Part shown: positions 5,220-60,483 of the stretch, in pieces
Position numbering within the stretch: position 1 is the first letter of the stretch
How the letters are laid out: each line of letters begins with the position of its first letter
Assembly (NCBI GenBank): GCA_001972305.1
Contig: BDDD01000910.1
Location: 364,404-428,403, forward strand
DNA: 64,000 nucleotides
Origin: Cephalotus follicularis
Lineage: Eukaryota; Streptophyta; Magnoliopsida; Oxalidales; Cephalotaceae
Direction: 5' to 3'
Program-made: the position numbers and the translations under genes
Notes under the pieces: model-generated
The model's input: only the letters and a program-made list of their open reading frames with translations
The model's database searches: none
What the model was told of the DNA's origin: nothing

Positions 5220-5989
5220 ATGTAAAGGCTATGCCTAGTCTAGTGCAACTCATAACGTACATGAGACTACCAATCAGTTTAGAGTATTCTAACTGATTCA
5301 CATTGGGGCCATCATTAGGGCTCAGTTTATTATTATAGTCACATGGTGTTTCAATGGGTCTGCACTTACTGTATCCCCAAATAGAAAGTAGTTGCTCAAT
5401 ATAATGAGTCTGATTAAGGGAGATGACTTGCCTTTTAAAACTTACTTTCATACCAAGAATGGTATTAACCATACCAAGATCTGTTATGACAAACCCCTCA
5501 GATTTGTTCATGTAGATTTTCTCAGTCAACTCTCCATTGAGAAAATTTGCCTTTATATCCATTTGATATACCACATAGTATTCAATAGATGCCATGCAAC
5601 AGAAAGCTCATTTCATCATTAATGGCTTCTGCCCACAACGAAGAGTCCCTAGATCTCATAGCTTCATTGTAGAAAGATGGATCATCCTTCAGATGGTAAG
5701 TGACGAATTTCTCACCAAAACTCTTGGGTACTCTATCTCTTATAGATACTCTCACAGGTACTGATACAGGAATCAATGTGGAACTAGTTTCAGAATGATC
5801 AGTTTCAGATTCAGAAACCTCCACTGTATAGCCAGGTACAGTCAAACCATGGTCTCTTAGGAACTTGTCCTCAAAGAAACCAACATCTCGAGATTCTATA
5901 ATCGCATTTGTAGATAGATCTAAAAACCTATTTGCATCACTATCTTCTGCGCAACCTAAGTACACACAAGTGTTGGTTCTAGGTCCCAC
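5200..5989 (-). pseudogene. copia-1 reverse transcriptase remnant with deletions
   Basis: The upper part (5989-5582) is the linker after integrase and ends at WAEAINDEMSFL, where copia RT normally begins. The next frame (5595-5200) picks up at YQMDIKANFLNGEL and runs to EKIYMNKSEGFV, then jumps directly to ITDLGMVNTILGMKV. Compared with the copia family, about 60 residues before DIKANFLNG and roughly 100 after EGFV are missing. The second gap includes the YVDD polymerase box, so no active polymerase can be made. Confidence 0.85.
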
Positions 5990-6073
5990 CTTAGGTCTCC
6001 TAGGGTCTTGTATTTTTACATGAGCAATACAGCCCTAAGTTTTGAGAGTGTCATATGTACAAAGATGTTTATG

Positions 6074-6538
6074 CTATAATTCATAAGGAATGAAGTTTAA
6101 CTTAGAGTGTTGTATTCTATTCAAGATGTGATTAGTAGTTAGAACTGCTCCCCCCCAGTAGGAAGTAGGCATGCCAGCTGTCAATAACATAGAGTTCAAC
6201 ATTTCTGTTAACATCATGTTCTTAAGTTCAGCTATGCCATTTGATTGGGGTGAGTAAGGAGCAGTAGTTTCAAGTATTATACCCTGAGAGGCACAAAATT
6301 CCTTGAACTTTGTCATTGTGTATTCTCCTCATCTATCACTCCTAAACCTTTTAATTTTCAGGTTTAATTGATTTTTAACATGATTTTTGAAAATTTTAAA
6401 CTTCTCAATAGCTTCGTCCTTCAATTTTAACAGATAAACATGACAATATCTTGAAAAATCGTCTATGAAAGTAATTAGATACTTCCGACCTCCACTAGTT
6501 GTGAAACTTTTGAAATCACATAAGTCAGAATGTATCAA
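6074..6538 (-). pseudogene. copia-1 integrase catalytic core, interrupted
   Basis: The frame 6538-6329 contains the first catalytic Asp (MIHSDLCD), the FIDDFSRY block and ends at RFRSDR. An in-frame TGA follows where a Gly codon is expected. The frame 6316-6074 then continues with FCASQGIILETTAPYSPQSN and GIAELKNMML, holding the expected third acidic residue. The domain order is normal and the damage is one nonsense change plus local decay. Confidence 0.85.
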
Positions 6539-6568
6539 TTCAAAACGTTGTGTACTTCTAGAAACCGA

Positions 6569-7312
6569 CTAAAAAGGTTTTCTAGTGATCTTAATCTGAG
6601 CACATACTTCACATCTATTAAATCGAATGGAAGTATTTAATGGTATATTATGAGTTTTAATTAATTGAAGTATTTTTTTATAATTCACATGTCCAAGTCT
6701 ATTGTGTAATAACTTAGGATCAATTAATGTTGAATTCACATGGCAAATAGTCTCATTAGCTAAATTCAACCTATACATACCATCAATCAGAAATGAACAT
6801 CCAAAATAAGCAGAATTAACAGATAAAGTTACTCTACAGTTCATAAAAGAAGTGCACATGCCAGCTTTGTCTAACAGATTAATAAAAATTAAATTCTTAT
6901 TAAGCAAAGGTACAAATTTAATATCTTTTAAAGTAAGTATGTTACCTGAAGAAAGGACCATGTTTGCAGTATCGGTATGGATTACGAATGCCTCGGCCCC
7001 ACCAGCTACTGTAATAGTCTCTTTCGTAGTATTGACCTCTGTTAGTAGACTCTTATTATTGGTTGCATGACATGTAGCTCCAGTATCTAACCACCACTCT
7101 GAAGAAGTGCTGACCCTGTCATCCGTCATCATTGCGATAAAGTTGCGAGGCTCGGGCTTTCCCACTAGCATATGAGCTTCCTTTTGTGGTGTGTCAACAC
7201 TAGGCTTCTTAGGTAGGCTACGGTCTGCTGCCCAGTAACCCCATTTTCCACAGTTGTAGCACTTAGTTTTCTTTTTATTTTTCTTTTTATCGATAGTTTT
7301 CTTGGCCTCCAA
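6569..7312 (-). pseudogene. copia-1 zinc knuckle, protease and pre-integrase
   Basis: A 247-residue open frame begins with a Lys-rich stretch and a degenerate CCHC knuckle (CYNCGKWGYWAADR): the His is Tyr and the last Cys is Arg, so zinc binding is probably lost. The aspartic protease site DTGAT follows (WWLDTGATCHAT). The GAG-pre-integrase region (LLHNRLGHVNYKKILQL) and the CxxC of the integrase zinc finger (RCEVCAQIK) come last. The frame is intact but flanked by broken ones. Confidence 0.85.
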
Positions 7313-7368
7313 CTTCGGGGGTTCACTCTTAGGTGACTTGGTCCGCTTAGGAAATTTCTTGGACTGTG

Positions 7369-7992
7369 TTACAGCATTGGCAGCAGACTATTGCTGCTAA
7401 CTAGCTCCAAGTTATTCCTAGTAAGATTCTCATCTTCGATACGGATGTATCGTTTGAGCTCATCCAGTCCCATATATTCCTTTTTCCTATACATTTCAGT
7501 TTTGAAAGAATGCCATGCAGTATGTAGCTTATAGATAATAACACCAACCAAGAAAATATCAGTTACACCAATATTCTCATTGTTCATCTTTGACCTCAAG
7601 TTCTCGATATCAATAACTTGAGGAGTGATTTTCATGTCCTCATGGAACTTGAAATATAAGAACTTATCCACCAGGTGAGATTTGGATAGGTCCTCCTCTT
7701 TTCGGAATTGAGCATCTAAGTTATCCCAGATTTCTTTAGCAGTCTTAAACTTAATATAGGTTTCTGCAAGACGGTCTGATAAATAATTCAATAAGTATTC
7801 TCTACAATAGTCCTCATCACTAAACCATTAAGATTCAGAAACATCTTCAGTGGTGTTAGAAAAATTACTCAAAACAGTATAGAAAATCTGATGGGATTTC
7901 AACCCGAATTAAGTCTTACGCCTCCAAGCGTTGTACTCTGACCCACCAAACGATTGTAGTTTAACCATCTCATAGGGAATATATTTATCCAT
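7369..7992 (-). pseudogene. copia-1 gag remnant
   Basis: A start at 7992 reads MDKYIPYEMVKLQSFGGSEY, the usual copia Gag opening (fold, then W..R). A stop follows shortly after. The main UBN2-type Gag body resumes at 7791-7369 (DRLAETYIKFKTAKEIWDNL, LDELKRYIRIEDENL). Gag would form the virus-like particle. The early stop makes the reading frame non-functional. Confidence 0.75.
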
Positions 7993-29100: not shown

Positions 29101-30965
29101 TAACATCATAGTAAACTATATATAGTAGAATTATGATCGACATAATTCCAGTTATAATTGTCTAAGTACTTACATACTTAAACATTGAATTTTTAGTGAG
29201 GGATAGATAGAGTTCTCTAAACCTGAATTTTATCTACAATAGTCTGTAAATGATGGAATCACAGCTATTTATAGACTAGGCTAGAGACCCTTATCTAAAA
29301 TCTGATGATATCTTAAATTGTTCTTTCCATCAAGAAAATAAATAATCAAATTATGATTTATCTTTATCATGACACACTATAATTAGGTAAATTTAAGGGA
29401 TTAAATAAATCAGATTATGATTCTTACAATAACTAGAGAGATTCATAATTCCGTAATTTAACAAATATATAATTAATTGTTGGATCATCACTTAATTAGC
29501 AAATAAAATTAAATGGATAGTGTGTATGAGCCACAATTAAAGTGATATGCTTATAGAGGCAACCAACAAATAATCCATAAATCTCCCAAGAAATAAAGGG
29601 TGAAGTTACGTGCCAAAATCAATCTCTCATCGAAGAAAAACTTGGGTGTTCCAGCATTATTATGTGACCGTGAGGCCTAGGAACACCCAAATTTTTTTAT
29701 TATTATCTGATAGTAAATCGTACATACACAGATATATATCGATCAATAATAAAACTGTAAAGAACAAAAGATCTTACGTGGAAAAACCCAATACAAAAAA
29801 AAATCCCAAAAGAGATCAGAAATATATTATGAATGTAACTTAACCTTCAGCCATGTATATAAGTATATATATATTGGTAAAACTTAATACTGAAAAATAC
29901 TAATATATCCCACGCATAAATAAAAAATTCGTATCGGAATCCCCCAAACCCCCCACATTCAAGTGGGGGGATCCAACAACGAACAGAACTATCAAATACT
30001 GAGTTTTTGAATACGAAATATAGACCATGTGACGAGACCAGAACACTTGATATTTTTCTCCTCACACTGAGGGGTATTAGATGACAATCCCCACTCTCTC
30101 ATGCCACACATACACTCAACGCATCAATTACAAAAGTGGGTAAAAAATTAATGTCCTCTTCTGCTTGACGATGGTTTCAACACGAATTATGATTGTAAAA
30201 AAATATAGATTATATTTTAATAACTCACTTACGTACCGACTCAATTATTATCGATAAAATAACCTTTAAAAACATCTCAAGCGCGCTTTAGACGGAACAA
30301 AGCCAACCGTATTGTAGAAGCACCATCAATGCAAAGTAAAATAAAAGTACAATTAGGTTTCCTCTTTGGGGGTTCTTTGTCGGTAAGCATGTACGAGGTT
30401 TAGGCCTTGGGAGACGTGGATGCTTAGCAGCCATTCATGGAATGTATTTTGTCTAAATAAAATTCACGTTGTAGTTGTAGTACGTATATATTAAAATATA
30501 ATTTAATAATAATTTATTTTTCTCACTTTAAATTCAATTATGGGGAGTGCCGACACACATTTTGTTAGTTTCTCCAATATGGAGATACTCCGGATTTCGC
30601 GCTCTGATTTACTTCACCAAGAACACGAGATAAACAACCACAATCATAATGCATGAGAGCTCCAACAATCCTTAATAATACTACTGAGAGGGTGTGTCTT
30701 TGAAGAAAATATTAAGTATTTTGGTTTTATCACGTGATCGTAAGATTTCAAAACATTTTATATTTTTTAATAAAAAAATCAATAGTAATTTTATAAAATT
30801 CATTATTGATAATAACATGAAACATTTGAACGTTTTTAAACTGCACAGTCACGTGATGAGACCGAAATAACTATTTTTTTTTGGTGCACCAACATTAGTT
30901 TTAGACTGGTTTGACATTTGTAACTAAATAACTACTATGATCCTTCCATTTTTTGCATTGTCGTA
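29101..30965. other. Intergenic; possible LTR remnant and MITE
   Basis: Text at 29770-29820 (TTACGTGGAAAAACCCAA) resembles copia LTR R regions. Two hairpins lie nearby: TTGGGTGTTCC at 29642-29652 with its complement at 29680-29690, and CCCCCCAC at 29949-29956 with its complement at 29963-29970. No LTR pair was defined. The fold-back at 30720-30873 is listed separately. No gene is recognised. Confidence 0.35.
30720..30873. repeat. Fold-back MITE with CACGTG-containing ends
   Basis: The left end (GGTTTTATCACGTGATCGTA) and the right end read inward (GGTCTCATCACGTGACTGTG) are similar. The inner parts pair AT-rich sequence around CAATAGTAATTTTATAAAAT and the ATTCATTATTG phrase. There is no coding content. 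The CACGTG words are G-box cores, but a role is not shown. Confidence 0.6.
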
Positions 30966-31239
30966 TGTGACATCCGTGTCCTAATACGGTCTGTGTCTGT
31001 GAGCCTATATTGTTTTATGTCTGTCTGTCTAGCGATTGGTCCGTTATCTGGTTCTCATGACATGCATCACGACATTAATAAAATTTTTACTAATGTGATT
31101 TCATTTTGATGGTTTTTCTACGTAACATAAGTTTTATCTGCTATAAAATTAAACGATATTTTACTGAAACTGCTGTTGAATTCAGAAAATAAGCCAAGTG
31201 GTATGTTCTAAACATCCAATTTCTGTTCGTATCGGTTTA

Positions 31240-31771
31240 ATTCTGGACGAAACCCAGTCCGTTTTGAGTTGAATATATATGAGAAATGCCAAAAAATTTT
31301 CATTTTTGGCCATTTCTTTCTCTCTCCCAGAATTTCTCTCTCCTCTCTCCCGTCTCTCACTGCCTTCTGCCGCAGGCGTCAGTGACGATCTAACACCGGC
31401 GAAGGTACCGGTCGAACCGCCTCTGTCTCCCGAGCATGCTGAGCCCCACCACCGTGCCAGCAACCGCACCGTTCCCGCGTACGGAGCTCTTCTCTCTCCG
31501 CCTCTGTTTTGCGCCATATCTTCGTCTCCGGCGATCGTCACGGCAAGACGAGCCCAGATTCGGACTCCTGGCGTCAAGGCCGTTCGAACTGTACCAGCCT
31601 CGACGCCTGCAACGCAGATCGGCGGCGAAGGCAGCCGTGGTCAACGCGCCCGTTTCGGCCAGATGCGGCGGCGCCGTGACCAACGGGCTCAGATTCGTGC
31701 TCCCCGACCTCTGACGCACCAGATGCGACCTCTGCAGCTGACCGGCGACCGCGTCTGGCTGTCACGCGTCG
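31240..31771 (+). other. GC-rich block with open frame conserved among family-A LTRs
   Basis: A TATATATATG box (about 31272) is followed by a CT-rich leader and a 165-residue frame (31279-31776). It contains SAAGVSDDLTPAKVPVEPP and PAIVTARRAQIRTPG. Recognisably related peptides are encoded at the same place in copies 2, 3 and 4. GC-rich DNA opens frames on both strands, so conservation may be of DNA, not protein. It probably represents the LTR transcript leader. Confidence 0.4.
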
Positions 31772-37308: not shown

Positions 37309-39073
37309 TTCATCACATGGTTTCTTGGCACTGGCAGAGGAGCTCACTCAGGCCTGGCATGGATGTGCAAACGTTGTTCAGTACGCCTGGAAGCAGGCAC
37401 GGTCACGCCAGCGTCGAGGGGGAGGTTCGACGCTTACCAGCGAGAAGCTCAGGCATCTCACCATGCATGGATACATGGCCAGGGGAGCTCCTCTCCACCA
37501 CGGTAACGTTGATCAAGGCGTCTTCGTGCGAACTTAGTGTCTGGTATAACCAGAATGCGAGGATGGGAGGAGACGCCCATGTGCAAGGCGCGTGACTTTG
37601 CCAAAATGCACTTAGCCGGGGTATTCTTATGTAATTATGTGTATATGTATATATATATAATCTACTTAGTATATAATCCAGTAGTAAACAATAAAACATC
37701 ATCACACAACAAGCAAGCAGGGAACGCATTCAGCAGCACACAACAAAACACACACACACACATGCTGGTAGGCACTCGGACATGGAGTAACCTACCTGGG
37801 CTAAGGTTGAAAACGGAGACGCTTCTTCTCCTCACAATACTGACTTCCTTCCTTGGCAGAGGTCTGCTATACACTTTGCTAATTCCTTCCTTCCTTGCAC
37901 ATCCTTGCTCTCTGGGAATGGGTCTTTATACAAGAGAAGGTGCAGGGGACATGGGGCTTCATGGAAAGCACTCACTTTGTCCCCATCTCCTACCCTCTCT
38001 TTCTCTCCCGAATCATCTAGAGAAATTGTGCAAGAAATAGTCAAAAAGTGTGTCTGAAGGGTCCTTATCTTCTTATATATGCCATTGGAAGAGTCTAGAA
38101 CTCTTGAGAGGATTCTCTACGGTTGCAGGCTTTTGCCGGCCTTGGGCCAGCTTCCCCGCCATTTTAGGCCTATTTACACTTTCTACATAAAAGCCCTATA
38201 CCAATTTAAATCCGATCCAGGGGGAATAAAACAATTCCTTAAGCCCAAAAATCATAATTTATTTTTCATTAAGGCCCAATTAAATACATTATAAAATTCG
38301 GGTCCAGCCCAATGGGCAGATAAATAATTACAAAGCCCATTAATAATATTTTATAATATTTAGGGCTCTTACATTTACTGCGAGCAAAACTCTGCGGGGT
38401 CTTTTTGTTCCATCTCACTAATCCTGTGGACTAACCCCCCTCTGTTTTCTGTTTTTAGTTCTGACATGTTAGTTTGTTGTGCTTTGTCAACTAGAGTCTG
38501 TCTGTCTGCTGAGGTGAGACCACAAGGGCATGCCTACTAGAGTCAACACATGCATATCATCATTACATTAGTATTTAAATTTCTGCATTACTTATGTTTT
38601 TATATAACTGTTTTGGTTTTGTTTAAAAAGGGCTGAGCCCTATTCAGGTTTTAAGTTTTGTTAATATGGTTGAGGCAGAGTCCAACACATTACTTGTTTT
38701 CTGCTTTTAAATTGTGATCTGCTGAGGACTGAGCCCATTTTATAAACTGTTTCCTCCTTCGGGAGTGTGGTCTGCTGAGAGCTAAGCCCATTTTATAATT
38801 GTTTCCTCCTTCTGGAGTGTAATTTTATAAAACTGTGTTTTTCTTTACAGGGGGTATAGTCCGATAAATGAATACTACATACCCGATTTTCGTAAAATTT
38901 TAAGAGTTATAATTATTTTCAAGTTTTTCAAGAAACTTTTCTGTTTTTGTTTATGTTTTGAAATGCTTTTCTGAATCTCTGATCTGTTGAAACTACGAGA
39001 TGAGTCTCTCATGGGAGGTTTGGCCTCGTAGTGGGCACGACGGATTCCAGCCGGGCTGGGTCCGGGTGTGTCA

Positions 39074-40101
39074 GTTAAGTTTACATTAATTAGTATAGTT
39101 GTTAGTCGATTGTTGACCATAATAGAAAAACTAATCTATACAAGAAGTTATGTTTATTTTTGGGTAGATAAAAAAAACAAGTCATACCCATTTAGACTTA
39201 ATCATTCTAGTAGAAATTCTTTAGGATAGAACATCCGAGAGACTCGAACATAAAATCTCAAAAATAACATTCGGATGCCTATAAATAGTTAAGTTAAAAG
39301 TAGAATACACAAAAATTCTCGTAATTTAAGCGTGTGAATATTTTGACACTTCAAGTTTAAAAAATAAGAATTTAACGCTCAAGTTTTTAATAATGAAATA
39401 AATACACTCCTACCGTTAATCATTCTTCAAGAATTCGGTGATTGTCAATATGTTTGGGTTGGTAGTAGCTATGAGAGTTTGTTTGGTAATATTTTAAAGT
39501 TTTAAGGGTGTACATATAATTTTAAATTTCTATTAACAGGATTAATCTAAATGTGTTAAATTATCATTTTAAAAATCTGAGGTGCCAAATCATTCACCCC
39601 TTCGAATTAAAATAATGTCCAATTTCACTATCACAATAAAATTTTGACTAGTTTTATGGGATCTTATATTTTTGTTTAATTTGTGATGATTTATTCATAT
39701 CATCCACGTTGAATTCATTCATATATTTTACTATCCACCTAACATCCATTGTGAACTCTTGTAAAATTTTATAAGGACATAACTTGAATAGGACATAAAA
39801 CCGTAAATTCCTTATTGTCATTTTAGAGAATCTCTATCTTGTTTTTTATGTTTTCATTTTATTTTCTTCATTGTGTTTTTTTTTTTTTGTAACGTAGTAT
39901 TACTCTAATTTTGTTTAATTTATGATTACATGGTCTAGGACTTAGAAGATCTCCTTATTAACAGTAATTTCAATGCGAAGAGAGTGGAATGAAAATATGC
40001 AGCATATCAATCACAAAATTGAATTATTGAGTAGCATAGTGATTTATTGTTGTTTTTCACTATTATTTCTATGACGTTGATGTTGCAGCAACCTAAAAAT
40101 T
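39074..40101. other. Intergenic, with a probable fold-back element
   Basis: No gene is recognised. At about 39322-39612 two arms of about 65 bp pair imperfectly: GTGAATATTTTGACACTTCA on the left, and TGAGGTGCCAAATCATTCAC on the right. This is probably an old MITE. Its exact ends and duplication were not resolved. Confidence 0.45.
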
Positions 40102-40257
40102 AGGGACAATTACAAATACCTCCTGAGGTATTACCTTACAACTTTTTCCTCCCTCTATTTTAAGATACTGCAAAAACCTCCATGAGGTATTAATCCATCC
40201 AACAAAAACCTCCTCGAGATATTAAGATACTCAAAATACCCTTCACTTCACAATAAT

Positions 40258-40279
40258 AATAATAATAATAATAATAATA
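40258..40279. repeat. (AAT)n microsatellite at inner end of left TIR
   Basis: About seven AAT units lie at the inner border of the left TIR, mirrored by the (ATT)n tract at 42810-42857 at the inner border of the right TIR. Their symmetry suggests they are part of the original inverted repeats. Confidence 0.85.
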
Positions 40280-42808
40280 CTAACAAAAAACCTGCAATAT
40301 AACCTTACAAATTGCAATCAGTATAGGAGAAATTTGTCGTGCCAATTTGAAGCCCAGAACACACAAACTACGAGCTTTCATATTTCCTTGACAAGAATAT
40401 TCTACAGTACTGCTGGGTTCAGTCCCAAATTGTGAACCAAAACCAATAACCAGAGGTTGAAGTGTTAAGAGGATAGAAAGATGATTCACCAAAGCATTGT
40501 GATTTACATAATTTAGCATTTCAAAGGTCCTTAAGATGTACTCGCTTTCTATGATCCTCGTAAACCACCATGCAAAAGGGGCCCATCTTATCAATGGCCC
40601 CAAACAAACAATCACGAGAGAAAGCAAGTCCAAATTGTACAGGAATTTACTCCAGTACTTTTTTTGTATAGATGAATTAAACAGGGAGCTTGCAAAAATG
40701 TAACTCACTCCCCAAGTTTAAAAGGAACCATCCTTCATTAGCTTCATGCTTAGACTGTTGAATCTCTGTCACGCCCAGACCCAGCCCCGCTGGAATCCGT
40801 CGCGCCCGCTACGAGGCCAAGTCTCCTATCAGAGACTCACCTCGTAGGTTCAGAAGAACAGAGATTCAGAAAATACATTTATAACAGAAAATTTCTTCAA
40901 AACATAAAGAAAACATAAAAGTTTCTTGAAAAACTTGAAAATAATTCTAACTCTTAAAATTTTACGAAAATCGGGCATGTAGTATTCGTTTATAGGACTA
41001 TGCCCCCTGTAAAGAAAAAAAACACAATTTATAAAAACACACTCCCGAAGGAGGAAACAGTTTGTAACGGGCTCAGCCCTCAACAGACCACACTCCCGAA
41101 GGAGGAAACAGTTTATAAAATGGGCTCAGCCCTCAGCAGATCACAATTTAAACAGAAAATAAGTAATGGGTTGGGCTCTGCCTCAACCGTATTAACAAAA
41201 CTTAAAACTTGAATAGGGCTCAACCCTTTTTTAAACAAAACCAAAACATTTATATAAACATATAAGTAATGCAGAATTTAAATACTGATGTAATTATGAT
41301 ATGCATGTTTTGACTCTGGTAGCATGCCCTTTGGTCTCACCTCAGCAGACTGACTGACTCCAGCTGACAAAAAGCAGCAGACTAACATGTCAGAACTAAA
41401 AACAGAAAACAGAGGAGCGGGTTAGTCCACAGGACTAGTGAGATGAAACAAAAAGACTCAGTAGAGTATTTGCATCGCAATATAAAAAATTCCATACAAA
41501 AACGATATAAAAGTATAAAACAATTGAAACAGAACAAAAATCCAGAATCTGTTTTATAAACAGATTTAAAACCACTTAAACAGAATTATACATCCAAAAA
41601 CCGATAAATAAACAGATTATAAAACAAAAGTTAACAGAATCAGCAAAAAGTCAGATTCTTTTCTCAAAACAGATTTTACTTCCTCAAAATCTCGGTCTGG
41701 CCGGAACGGTCGCGTTGACCGCGACTGCCTTCGCCGGCGATCGACGTTGCCGACATCGTCACGGGTCGGGGCCGGTACCGTTCGAACGGCCACAACGCCA
41801 GGAGTCCGAATCTGGGCTCGCCTTGCCGTGACGACCACCGGAGACGCCGGGACGATGAAGAACAGTGGCCGGGAAAGAGAAGTGCTCGTCGGGCGCAAAC
41901 GGCGCCGTTGCCGGCGTCGAGGCTGGGGCCGGTGTACTCTGGAGGTCGCTGTGGTTCGACCGATACCCTCGCCGGCGTCAGATCGGCACTGACGCCGGTG
42001 GCAGGAGCCAGATGACAGAGAGAGACGGGAGAGAAGAGAGAGAAATCGGGGGGGGAGAGAGAGAAAGGCATAAAATGAGAGGGATTTGGCATTTTCCCTT
42101 TATATTTAACCAGAACAGATCGATTTTGTCCAGAATTTAACCGATACGGACAGAAATTGGATATTTAGGACATACCACTTGGGCTATTTTTTCGAATCAA
42201 CAGTCATTTCAGAAAAATATCATTTAATTTACGGAAAGACAAATTCATTTCTTATGCAGAAAAAAATCAGAATAAAATCATAAAAATTTAAAATAATGCC
42301 ATGATGCATATCATGAATGCCAGAAAACAGATTAACAGACCGACAGACAGATTGAAGCCACGTAGGCTCACAGACACAGGCCGTACAAGGACACGGATGT
42401 CACAAACTCCCTCTAGAGTAATGACGTGAAGCCTTTCTACAATCTGTTCCAGTTTTCATCATGGCTACAAATTCATCGTAGCTGATTCGTACATCCTGCA
42501 TTCATAAGATGTCAAATTTAACTATGCTAAATTAAACTTGTATCTTATGGCAAAATATGGTTTTTGACCTTGTCAGTGTCCACTTCTTGAAAGATGTCAT
42601 TTTCTACATCTGTACAATCTTCTGGTCCGTCTTCCATTAACGCGTTTCGGAGCTCATCTGGTTCAATGTAACCATTGCCATCCTTGTCAAAGTAGGAGAA
42701 GGCCTTGCGAAGACGCTCATCATGAGCCATCCTTTGTAGATGAAGGGAAACCGCAAGAAATTCTCCATAGTCCAATGTTCCTTTCCCATTAGTATTACTT
42801 AGTAACAT
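40280..42808 (-). pseudogene. Captured calcium-dependent protein kinase 3' end
   Basis: Exon 42808-42569 encodes an EF-hand segment (NTNGKGTLDYGEFLAVSLHL), a complete EF loop (DKDGNGYIEPDE) and DIFQEVDTDK. An intron of 73 bp (42568-42496, GT-AG) follows. The next exon starts [18 protein letters not shown] and reads [10 protein letters not shown] at 42411, where a family-A LTR interrupts it. It resumes at 40766 with RFNSLSMKLMKDGS. Two extra T residues then create an early stop where family members read LNLG. DNA down to about 40285 is probably the old 3' UTR. In the last EF loop a conserved Gly is Val. The kinase, autoinhibitory and first EF regions were never captured. The closest resemblance is to the CPK10/CPK30 clade, from memory. 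Confidence 0.88.
40767..42404 (-). mobile_element. Family-A solo LTR, copy 2, 1638 bp
   Basis: The minus strand begins TGTGACATCCGTGTCCTTGT (42404) and ends CTGGGTCTGGGCGTGACA (40767). Flanks are ATCTC (40762-40766) and AACTC (42405-42409), a 5-bp duplication with one mismatch. When the LTR is removed the host frame reads SRGRFNSLS without a gap, which confirms the insertion point. It contains the GC-rich open block and a duplicated segment of about 56 bp with GGGCTGAGCCC and CTTCGGGAGTGTG, as in copies 1 and 3. Confidence 0.9.
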
Positions 42809-42809
42809 C

Positions 42810-42857
<48 letters not shown>
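42810..42857. repeat. (ATT)n microsatellite at inner end of right TIR
   Basis: About sixteen ATT units directly abut the truncated CDPK exon. The junction between exon and microsatellite marks one end of the captured host fragment. Confidence 0.95.
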
Positions 42858-42858
<1 letters not shown>

Positions 42859-43013
42859 AAGTGAGGGGTATTTGAGGTATTTTAATAATTCATGGAGGTT
42901 TTTGTTAGATGTATTAATATCTCAGAGAAGTTTTTGTAATATCTTAAAATAGATGGAGGAAAAAATTATAAAGTAATACCTTAGGGAGGTATTTATAATT
43001 GTCCCTAAAAATT

Positions 43014-44140
43014 ATCATTGCATAATATGTTCTTATTTGGCTATGGTCCACTCGAAATGGCATTTTTTAGAGTTAAATCAGACAAAATGATTATTCTTTT
43101 ATGACACACAATACTGATAGATTTTTAATATAATGCATTTAAGACTAACAAAATGATCATTAAGATAGCTATAATAGTTAAAGTAATATTATACATACTC
43201 CTTTCTTTTCATTTAAAGTTCACGTAATCACTTAGATTAAAAAAAAAAAATCACATAATCACACCAATGACGTAAAATCAAAACAACTCTAAGGTCACAG
43301 TTTATTAATTTTTAACTCCCACCTAGTCCCAAAAAGGAAAACGAAGATGTCAATATCTTTATAATTGAATTTGCATCATTCCATTCAAATGAGTGTAAGG
43401 TAATTGGTTCAACTAACCTATGAATTAAATATTTTTCTCTCAACTATATCACAAAAAAGAAAAAGAAAAGGAAAACGGAGACTCATAAAATAGGTGTATC
43501 TTTTTTTTATACAAAAAAATGATATCATTAATCGACAAATCAGACAAATTGATATACATAAAAATGAATAAATTGGTACACAAACAATTTGTACGAAGTG
43601 AGACCCAATAATAATAGACATAACACCATCTTATGAGCTGTAATTGAAGATGACTCGACCGTATCACCTCCTAAAAAATGTCGCTATAGTCTAAAATGAC
43701 ATCCTCTCTGACTGATTTTGATTCCAAGTGATGCTATATTGCAAAAGCATCCGTACTAGTTCGCATTTTTCCAAGAAATCCAGACAAGACTGATAAGTAA
43801 AGACAAATTGAGCTACAAACTTCACTTGAAGTAACAACTATCATGTGATACCAAAACAAAACAATCGGTTTTGGTTCCAAAACCGACTAGTAAACCCCCA
43901 TATCAACTAAATCAAACTACATAAATTAGGATAACAAGAGAAAAACCCCAAAACAAAACTAAAAAGCATAGAAAAACATATCTAAGGAGAAGAAAAAGTT
44001 ATGTTTCACCCTACGAGACGTAGATATGCTTTTTCTCTAAAGGGGCGCAATAGCACCCCGTTATATATAGAGAACATATGTATGGAAAAAAAGGTAAAGG
44101 GGATTGAGAAGCTATTGCTCTTTGTCTAATTCGTGAGCCT
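43014..44140. other. Intergenic sequence, nothing recognised
   Basis: AT-rich DNA between the Pack-type element and the copia-2 left LTR. There are short frames only. No repeat boundaries were recognised. Confidence 0.4.
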
Positions 44141-44863: not shown

Positions 44864-46229
44864 TGTGACATCCGTGTCCTTGTACGGTCTGTGTCTGTGA
44901 GCCTACGTGGCTTCTGTCTGTCTGTCGGTCTGTTAATCTGTTTTCTAGCATTCATGATATGCATCATGAATTTATTTAAATTTTTACGATTTTATTCTGA
45001 TAGTTTTCTGCATAAGAAATTAATTTTCTTTTCTGTAAATTGAAAGATATTTTCTGAAATGACTGCTGATTCGGAAAAATAGCCCAAGTGGTATGTCCTA
45101 AATATCCAATTTCTGTCCGTAACGGTTAAATTCTGGGCAAAAACCCAGTCCGTTTTGAGTTATATATATGGAAAATGCAAAATTTAAAAAAAAAATTGCC
45201 ATTTTTTATCTCTCTCTCTCTCTCCCTTTCTCTCTCCCGGCCATCTCTCTCTCTCTCGTTCTATCTCCCCGTTCTGCTGTTGTCACCGGCGTTGGTGGCG
45301 ATATGGCGCTGGCGAAGGTACCGGCCGAACCGCCTCAACCTCCGGAGTGCACCGACCCCAGCCTCGACACCGGCAACGGCGCCGTTTGCGCCCGGCGACC
45401 ACTTCTCCCTTCGCCCCTGTTTTCCTTCGTTCTGGCGTCTCCGGTGGTCGTCACGGCAAGGGGAGCCCAGATTCGATTTTATACTTTTATTATATCTTTT
45501 CTACAAAGATATTTATATGCGAGCAAAAAACTCTATGGAGTCTTTTTGTTCCATCTCACTAGTCCTGTGGACTAACCATCTCTTCTGTTTTCTGTTTTTA
45601 GTTCTGACAGGTTAGTCTGCTGAGCTCTGTCAGCTGGAGTCGGTCTGTCTGCTGAGGTGAGACCATAAAGGGCATGCTACCAGAGTCAACATATGCATAG
45701 CATACTGCATCAATGTTTTAAATTCTGCATTATTTATATGTTTATATAAATGTTCTGTTTTCATTTAAAAAGGGCTGAGCCCTATTTAGATTTCTATTTT
45801 GATAATATGGTTGAGGCTGAGCCCAACCCGTTTCTTGTTTTCTGCTTTTAAATTATGATCTGCTGAGGGCTGAGCCCATTTTATAAACTGTTTCCTCCTT
45901 CGGGAGTGTGATCTGTTGAGGGCTGAGCCCATTACAAACTGTTTCCACCTTCGGGAGTGTGATTTTATAAAACTGTGTTTTTCTTTACAGGGGGCATAGT
46001 CCTATAAACGAATACTACATGCCCGATTTTCGTAAAATTTTAAGAGTTAGAATTATTTTCAAGTTTTTCAAGAAACTTTTCTGTTTTCTTTCTGTTTTGA
46101 AGAACTTTCTGTTTTAAAATGCTTTTCTGAAACTCTGTTCTGCTGAACCTACGAGGTGAGTCTCTGATGGGAGACTTGGCCTCGTAGCGGGCACGACGGA
46201 TTCCAGCAGGGCTGGGTCCGGGCGTGACA
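44864..46229 (+). mobile_element. Family-A solo LTR, copy 3, 1366 bp
   Basis: It starts TGTGACATCCGTGTCCTTGT and ends GGGTCCGGGCGTGACA with a perfect 5-bp duplication TTATC at 44859-44863 and 46230-46234. A TATATATATGG box at about 45160 precedes a CT-rich leader. About 270 bp present in copy 2 (downstream of GCCCAGATTCG) is deleted. It has the same 56-bp internal duplication as copy 2. No coding domain is present. Confidence 0.92.
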
Positions 46230-59765: not shown

Positions 59766-60483
59766 CGCCACCGCATCTGACCGAAACGGCTGCGTTGACC
59801 GTGGCTGCCTTCACCGCCGATCTGCGTTGCCGGAGTAGTCACGGGTCAGGGCTGGTCGCGTTCGAACCGTCGTAACACCAGGATGCCGAAACTGGGTTCG
59901 CCTTACCGTGACGATCACCGGAGATGGCGGATCGACGCAAAACAGAGGCGGAGAGAGAAGGGCTTCGTGCGCCCCAACGGCGCGGTGGTGAGGCTCAGTG
60001 TGCTCAGGAGGTGATGGCGGTTCGACCGGTAGCTTCGCCGGCATCAGATCGGCAGTGACGCCGGCTGCAGAGGCAGAAATAGTGAGAGAACGGGAGAGAA
60101 TAGAGAGAAAACGGTAGAGAGGAGAGAGAAAAGACAAAAAATGAATAAAAAATTTGGTATTTCCCTTATATATATATGTTCAACCATAACATATTGGGTT
60201 TTGCCCAGAAATTTAACCGATACGAATAGAAATTGGATCTTTAGGACATACCACTTGGCTTATTTTTTGAATTCAGTAGCAGTTTCAGTAAAACATCATT
60301 AAATTTTATAGCAGAGGAAACTTATTTGTTACGCAGAAAAACCATCAGAATAAATCATAAAAAATTTATAAATGTCGTGATGCATATGTCATGAATGCCA
60401 GAAAACAGACCAACAGTTAGACAGACAGACAGAAAGCCTCGTAGGCTCACAGACATAGACCGTACTAGGACACTGATATCACA
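59766..60483 (-). mobile_element. Family-A LTR, copy 4, truncated
   Basis: The minus strand starts TGTGATATCAGTGTCCTAGT at 60483 and matches the 5' half of the other family-A copies through the TATA box, CT-rich leader and GC-rich block, as far as GATGCGGTGGCGCC at 59766. The 3' half is missing. It abuts a CACTA end on the right and a gypsy LTR on the left. Confidence 0.82.

Follow-up and report, generated by a model that had tools for sequence, protein, structure and literature searches.

A likely Pack-MULE carrying the 3' end of a CDPK gene between AAT-bordered terminal inverted repeats in Cephalotus follicularis

How did the 3' end of a calcium-dependent protein kinase (CDPK) gene, with its last intron still in place, come to lie between two terminal inverted repeats (TIRs)? 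The question is raised by a locus on contig BDDD01000910.1 of Cephalotus follicularis. By the window we mean the whole stretch of DNA that was analysed, 64,000 nucleotides in length (C910:364404-428403), and the genome searched comprises 1.577 Gb in 9746 contigs. The same gene fragment lies beside the same TIRs at four further loci, on contigs C376, C2512, C3822 and C2271, here called the sister copies. The region is very likely one copy of a small Pack-MULE family which carries up to 955 bp of a CDPK gene from contig C4252, the gene piece having been captured from DNA, presumably by template switching, and then moved by transposition.

We place the element, a likely non-autonomous Mutator-like element (MULE), at positions 40103-43005 of the window. 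Its features are the following.

40094-40102, no strand: left target-site duplication, TAAAAATTA, 9 bp
40103-40289, plus strand: left TIR, downstream of the CDPK fragment in the sense of the gene, with an (AAT)n tract at its inner border (40252-40283)
40284-40717, minus strand: captured CDPK 3' UTR; compared with the C376 copy, 77 nt have secondarily gone here, which brings the UTR up against the AAT tract
40718-40766, minus strand: rest of the last CDPK exon, as far as a TAA at 40718-40720; it opens with GAGAT, the 5-nt target duplication of the LTR
40767-42404, no strand: solo LTR that splits the last CDPK exon, 1638 bp, with TG...CA ends
42405-42495, minus strand: last CDPK exon from its start to the LTR
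42496-42568, minus strand: retained CDPK intron, 73 bp, GT...AG (78 bp in the donor)
42569-42795, minus strand: captured part of the penultimate CDPK exon with EF hands, 227 nt, starting 4 nt inside the donor exon as counted from the splice site
42796-42810, minus strand: linker AGATGTTACTAAGTA, which separates the AAT tract from the captured sequence and has close versions in the sister copies
42810-43005, minus strand: right TIR, upstream in the sense of the gene, with a 48-nt AAT/ATT tract (42810-42857)
43006-43014, no strand: right target-site duplication, TAAAAATTA, 9 bp

The two TIRs are about 187 nt long, and 40103-40289 aligned with 43005-42818 gives 84.6% identity over 188 aligned positions. 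A 21-nt motif taken from the ends, allowing up to three mismatches, matches twice in the window, at the two ends of the element, and not at all in 100 shuffles. The first-pass annotation had already described these TIRs, with AAT and ATT tracts at their inner borders, and both are present. Its element borders are corrected here to 40103-43005, where the element reads GGG...CCC, and its 7-bp direct repeat is replaced, after the comparison of 30 elements, by the 9-bp repeat found at fixed edges. Without the LTR and one copy of the LTR repeat the element measures 1260 bp, in agreement with the 1.26 kb estimated before.

The exon part, the intron and the start of the last exon occupy 42795-42405 on the minus strand, followed beyond the LTR by the end of the last exon and the 3' UTR. 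The cargo matches EF-hand families in Pfam (E 1.1e-19), and its best PDB chain is the CDPK isoform AK1 (2aao, E 1.9e-26), as expected from the initial description of a CDPK EF-hand exon, an intact GT-AG intron and a last exon. The TAA at 40718-40720 is an earlier stop, made by a 1-bp insertion which is absent from the donor and from the C376 and C2512 copies; the C3822 copy lacks the stretch that holds this insertion in the window.

The solo LTR in the last exon is flanked by 5-bp repeats with one mismatch (GAGTT and GAGAT). The donor and three sister copies run through this site without a break, and the LTR arrived later than the capture. Four more partial copies of the same LTR family, 75-89% identical, are found in the window at 30963-31663, 38376-39070, 44864-46227 and 59776-60483. 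The window also contains Copia-type gag and pol pieces (PF14223, PF22936, PF13976, PF25597) at 5582-7827 on the minus strand.

To identify the source of the cargo, the genome was searched with the exon-intron-exon piece, which gave seven rows at six loci, and with the 3' UTR piece, which gave five rows at five of these six loci. Five of the six have the TIRs, and the sixth, on C4252 (L054), is a CDPK locus with kinase and EF-hand exons. An ORF of this locus contains the kinase N-lobe (read by eye), and there are two PF00069 matches, one of them below the family cut-off, in addition to the EF hands. This is likely the donor gene, for which the first-pass annotation had proposed to look. The donor stretch common to the elements, L054 4826-5780, is 955 bp long; it starts 4 nt into the penultimate exon, spans the last intron and last exon and takes in part of the 3' UTR. 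The TIRs are not the normal surroundings of this CDPK locus, as no TIR match was found across its 9.9 kb, and of the six loci found in this genome the donor is the one where the fragment occurs without them.

Compared with the donor, the cargo has a pS of 0.053 and a pN of 0.024 in the window, 0.055 and 0.024 in C376, 0.079 and 0.039 in C3822, and 0.054 and 0.054 in C2512, with stop codons in the C376 and C2512 copies. These changes are too few to argue for a function of the kinase fragment from selection. The fragment is a broken kinase tail, and nothing indicates that it has a function.

The sister copies bear on the number of captures. In C376, C2512 and C3822 the fragment lies between two TIRs, in C3822 with gaps and with a 2.87-kb insertion in the exon that has CCTTC on both sides (by eye). 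The C2271 copy consists of the upstream TIR and cargo positions 1-260, followed by an insertion that starts with TG (by eye); the other end of this element was looked for and not found. At the upstream junction the elements have in common the linker AGATGTTACTAAGTA, or a close version of it, followed by the donor sequence ATACTAATGG. The donor reads CAACAG/GTAG just before ATACTAATGG, and the linker was not found at the corresponding place in the donor. The downstream junction common to C376, C2512 and C3822 is CCAG(T/A)ACTT followed by AGTATTAATA(T/C)TAG, while the window copy, from which 77 nt are gone relative to C376, does not have it.

The cargo differs from the donor by 3.5%. In 13 alignment columns the three or four elements with data, C2271 not included, agree with each other against the donor, and the window and C3822 have two further changes in common that are absent from the other compared rows. 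An exact pattern for the upstream linker beside AAT gave seven rows at three places, all of them in CDPK elements, and none with the reversed control. The exact pattern for the downstream linker gave two places, both CDPK elements, which is weak since the reversed control also gave two. Neither of the two patterns found a CDPK-free relative with the exact linkers.

Exact 9-bp target duplications at fixed edges flank the window copy and the C3822 copy (TAAAAAGAA). In C376 the duplication matches after a 1-nt shift of the edge, and in C2512 at 7 of 9 positions, a weak match, as two mismatches or fewer are found in 63 of 870 re-paired flanks too. The flanks and the target duplications differ among the four copies with both ends, which argues that the composite moved by transposition. 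The shared junctions and the 13 columns that agree against the donor point to one capture. The first-pass annotation had held that the capture was from DNA and not from mRNA; the intron in the donor gene, and the sister copies with the same intron and the same junctions, speak for this.

The TIRs belong to a larger family. The window TIR has at least 81 matches in the genome among the best 40 of 468 candidates that were scored, and there are 152 exact copies of the 20-nt TIR end, against none for the reversed control. We fetched 35 loci, eight of them single-sided and 27 with both ends, and compared 30 elements, i.e. the 27 minus L036, which repeats the C376 copy, plus three sister copies and the window. 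Two further loci, L058 and L059, were looked at in addition to these 30. With the edges fixed, 17 of the 30, the window included, are flanked by an exact 9-bp repeat, compared with 2 of 870 re-paired flanks. Five more have one or two mismatches, three need a 1-nt shift of the edge to match, and the remaining five (L015, L018, L019, L024, L035) have no usable duplication, perhaps because one end was misplaced or lost. Of the 60 arms, 54 have an AAT tract at the inner border of the TIR; among control stretches the figure is 8 of 886. The AAT-bordered TIR is a family trait.

These relatives share ends, target-site duplication and AAT with the CDPK copies. The short ones (L027, L034, L039 and L042, 355-793 bp) are of MITE size, below about 800 bp, with the same TIRs, and would correspond to the empty MITE relatives that the first-pass annotation had suggested searching for; the window element is longer because of its cargo and its LTR. 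Two or more TIR units on an arm are found in 18 of the 29 relatives, while the CDPK copies are single-unit, and L044 is probably a composite. Several relatives have a palindromic loop; L027, L030 and L032 have loops that are short or palindromic, and the loops of L018, L034 and L042 match one another in either orientation. In six relatives that were measured, 434-538 nt of other sequence separate the two AAT tracts. The loop of L016 (C9112) contains at 598-2890 a 2293-bp TG...CA insertion, LTR-like by eye, with ATGGC on both sides. A further gene capture was suspected in L029 and rejected, as the one ORF scanned there had no Pfam match.

One relative is considerably longer. In L058 (57-6243, C160) the ends of the window family lie 6187 bp apart and are flanked by an exact 9-bp repeat, AAAATCTTA. 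The window TIR matches both of its ends, over 81-82 nt at one and over 107 nt plus further pieces at the other. An ORF of L058 has a SWIM zinc finger (E 1.1e-8), which we take to be of the kind found in MuDR-type transposases. The catalytic domain PF10551 was not found in the four scanned ORFs of L058; in the genome it has at least 150 matches, with the best 150 of 982 candidates scored. L058 is a candidate for a damaged autonomous relative with the remnant of a SWIM-domain transposase. A target duplication of about 9-11 bp is the usual length for MULEs, and the assignment of the family to the MULEs is likely.

With the donor, the sister copies with the same junctions and the CDPK-free relatives at hand, the earlier reading of a Pack-type element that took the 3' end of a CDPK gene from DNA is supported, and the following course of events can be proposed. 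The carrier is a non-autonomous element with TIRs of about 150 nt, followed inwards by (AAT)n. While a broken or stalled element was being repaired or replicated, template switching would have copied the CDPK stretch from genomic DNA, and this stretch would have replaced the loop between the two AAT-bordered TIRs. Transposase may have been supplied in trans by MuDR-type elements with the same ends, the element on C160 being a putative damaged example. The window copy afterwards lost 77 nt on the 3' side and received the solo LTR that splits the last exon. In the portions of PMC8277862 cited here, template switching is proposed for animal Pack-TIRs, whose breakpoints often have short microhomology and in one case extra sequence.

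A possible but rather unlikely alternative is that the AAT tracts offered a special acquisition route, in which breaks or fork stalls at the microsatellites of a hairpin element swap the loop for ectopic DNA, so that the breakpoints are fixed by the repeats. Both breakpoints of the three sister copies with both ends are close to AAT, their six linkers being 14-27 nt long, compared with the 434-538 nt between the tracts of the six relatives, and the linkers are AAT-like by eye. Two uniformly placed breakpoints would both fall within 20 nt with a chance of about 0.3-0.4%, a figure that is post hoc and uses a cut narrower than two of the six linkers (24 and 27 nt). However, these breakpoints represent a single capture event, the linkers are not pure AAT, and the true parent may have had a short loop like that of L027 or L030. 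The first-pass annotation had proposed that the fragment was taken up, at the repeat, by a MITE whose loop was a microsatellite. The closeness of the sister breakpoints to AAT agrees with this, but linkers lie in between, the loops of the relatives consist of other sequence, and the contact in the window is secondary: the left AAT tract touches the 3' UTR there because of the later 77-nt loss. The broader idea, that the inner-border (AAT)n are recurrent points of breakage or template switching, and that the family swaps its whole loop in one step as a microsatellite-bordered cassette instead of by random gap filling, we consider doubtful.

It is very unlikely that a second mobile element already carrying the CDPK fragment inserted into the AAT loop. 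Such events are seen in the family, where nested elements with other ends and with pieces of FSH1 (L045) and Ctr (L044) lie inside family members, the one in L045 within an ATT tract with TTATTATTA on both sides. At the CDPK junctions, however, neither a second TIR pair nor a nested target duplication was found by eye, and the linkers have only a short ACTAAGT(A) motif in common, in inverted orientation.

The nested element of L045 (1637-2951, C348) is 1315 bp long, has the ends GGGTAAATTACA...TGTAATTTACCC and contains pieces of an FSH1 serine hydrolase gene (PF03959). That of L044 (1233-2826, C1303) is about 1.6 kb long, with ends of the L045 type, a piece of a Ctr copper transporter (PF04145), and TAAATTATT on both sides when an offset of one base is allowed. 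Judged by these ends and contents, the two would constitute a second Pack-type family in the genome.

Under the preferred reading, one capture from DNA followed by transposition, the divergence of the arms has to be explained. The two TIR arms of the window differ by 15% from each other, compared with 3.5% between cargo and donor; therefore the TIRs either diverged before the capture or decayed faster. Relative to the family consensus, C-to-T and G-to-A changes together number 9 to 24 among the 15 to 39 differences of an upstream arm (five arms) and 4 to 11 among the 11 to 22 of a downstream arm (four arms), which fits a decay of the arms without proving it. The upstream TIR of C376 (L053 4544-4690) departs from the consensus at 39 of 149 positions, C-to-T or G-to-A accounting for 24, and the cargo of this copy is 3.1% from the donor, suggesting unequal decay of arm and cargo. 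In a TIR tree one branch separates the five upstream from the four downstream arms (support 56/90, 89% of 200 bootstrap trees); shuffles gave values as low in 6 and 10 of 500 cases, 41 of the 66 inner branches are open, and the arms are interspersed with 60 ungrouped rows. The tree hints that the arms already differed before the capture; as a means of naming the parent element it was given up for its poor resolution.

Arms more diverged than the cargo would also be expected from a segmental duplication of a block with two unrelated MITEs around a CDPK pseudogene, but with different target duplications in the four copies with both ends, where the flanks were compared at the duplications, this is extremely unlikely. 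We give next to no credence to a retrocopy or processed pseudogene that landed by chance between two MITEs: its captured 5' end does lie 4 nt from the donor splice acceptor, but all five TIR-flanked copies retain the last intron (C2271 no more than its first 33 nt, followed by another insertion), no poly(A) run was seen at the 3' junctions, and the TIRs are common to five loci.

Searches of titles and abstract starts found nothing on the TIR letters, on Pack-MULEs together with a calcium-dependent protein kinase, on microsatellite-bordered TIRs or on Pack-MULE breakpoints at microsatellites. A link to viral contigs was rejected, as the TIR end has two exact 18-nt matches there, attributed to chance, and the other matches, to the element, are of 19 nt, shorter or weaker. 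How MULEs acquire gene fragments is called unsettled in section 4.2 of PMC3310237 and in the cited portions of PMC8277862. Here the donor, the sister copies, the CDPK-free relatives and a putative damaged transposase-bearing relative are all found in one assembly, and the capture junctions can be read. If more independent captures in this TIR family broke at AAT borders, the microsatellite route would become testable.

Among plant foldback elements, SoFT, FARE and Hairpin presumably resemble the family, by description, in their long inverted arms built of repeats around a loop that is short or palindromic, the arrangement seen in L027, L030 and L032. Repeated arm subunits in 18 of 29 relatives, and inverted-repetitive loops in some, are foldback features. 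The element is an ordinary Pack-MULE made by a known process, and its CDPK cargo and AAT-bordered TIRs are details. According to the sections of PMC3310237 cited here, MULEs with multiple, mostly tandem TIRs occur in maize, tomato, rice and Arabidopsis, including a tomato Pack-MULE family. With the tomato PM-ZIBP elements, which have tandem TIRs (PMC3310237), and with those of rice, as cited in PMC8277862, our elements share long TIRs of about 100 bp or more, target-site duplications (9 bp here), a host gene fragment, several copies after the capture and non-autonomy, and the tandem TIR units in 18 of the 29 relatives examined add to the likeness to PM-ZIBP. They differ from the tomato and rice elements in that their TIRs end inwards in (AAT)n, the CDPK copies have single TIRs and the cargo is the 3' end of a CDPK gene. 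The Drosophila Ssk-FB4, a foldback or MULE-like Pack-TIR, is similar, as far as it is described in the cited parts of PMC8277862, in its foldback-type repeats, target-site duplications of 9-10 bp, multicopy gene capture and extra sequence at a breakpoint. However, Ssk-FB4 is an animal element with TIRs of about 700 bp and an expressed gene, whereas the element described here carries a broken plant kinase fragment.
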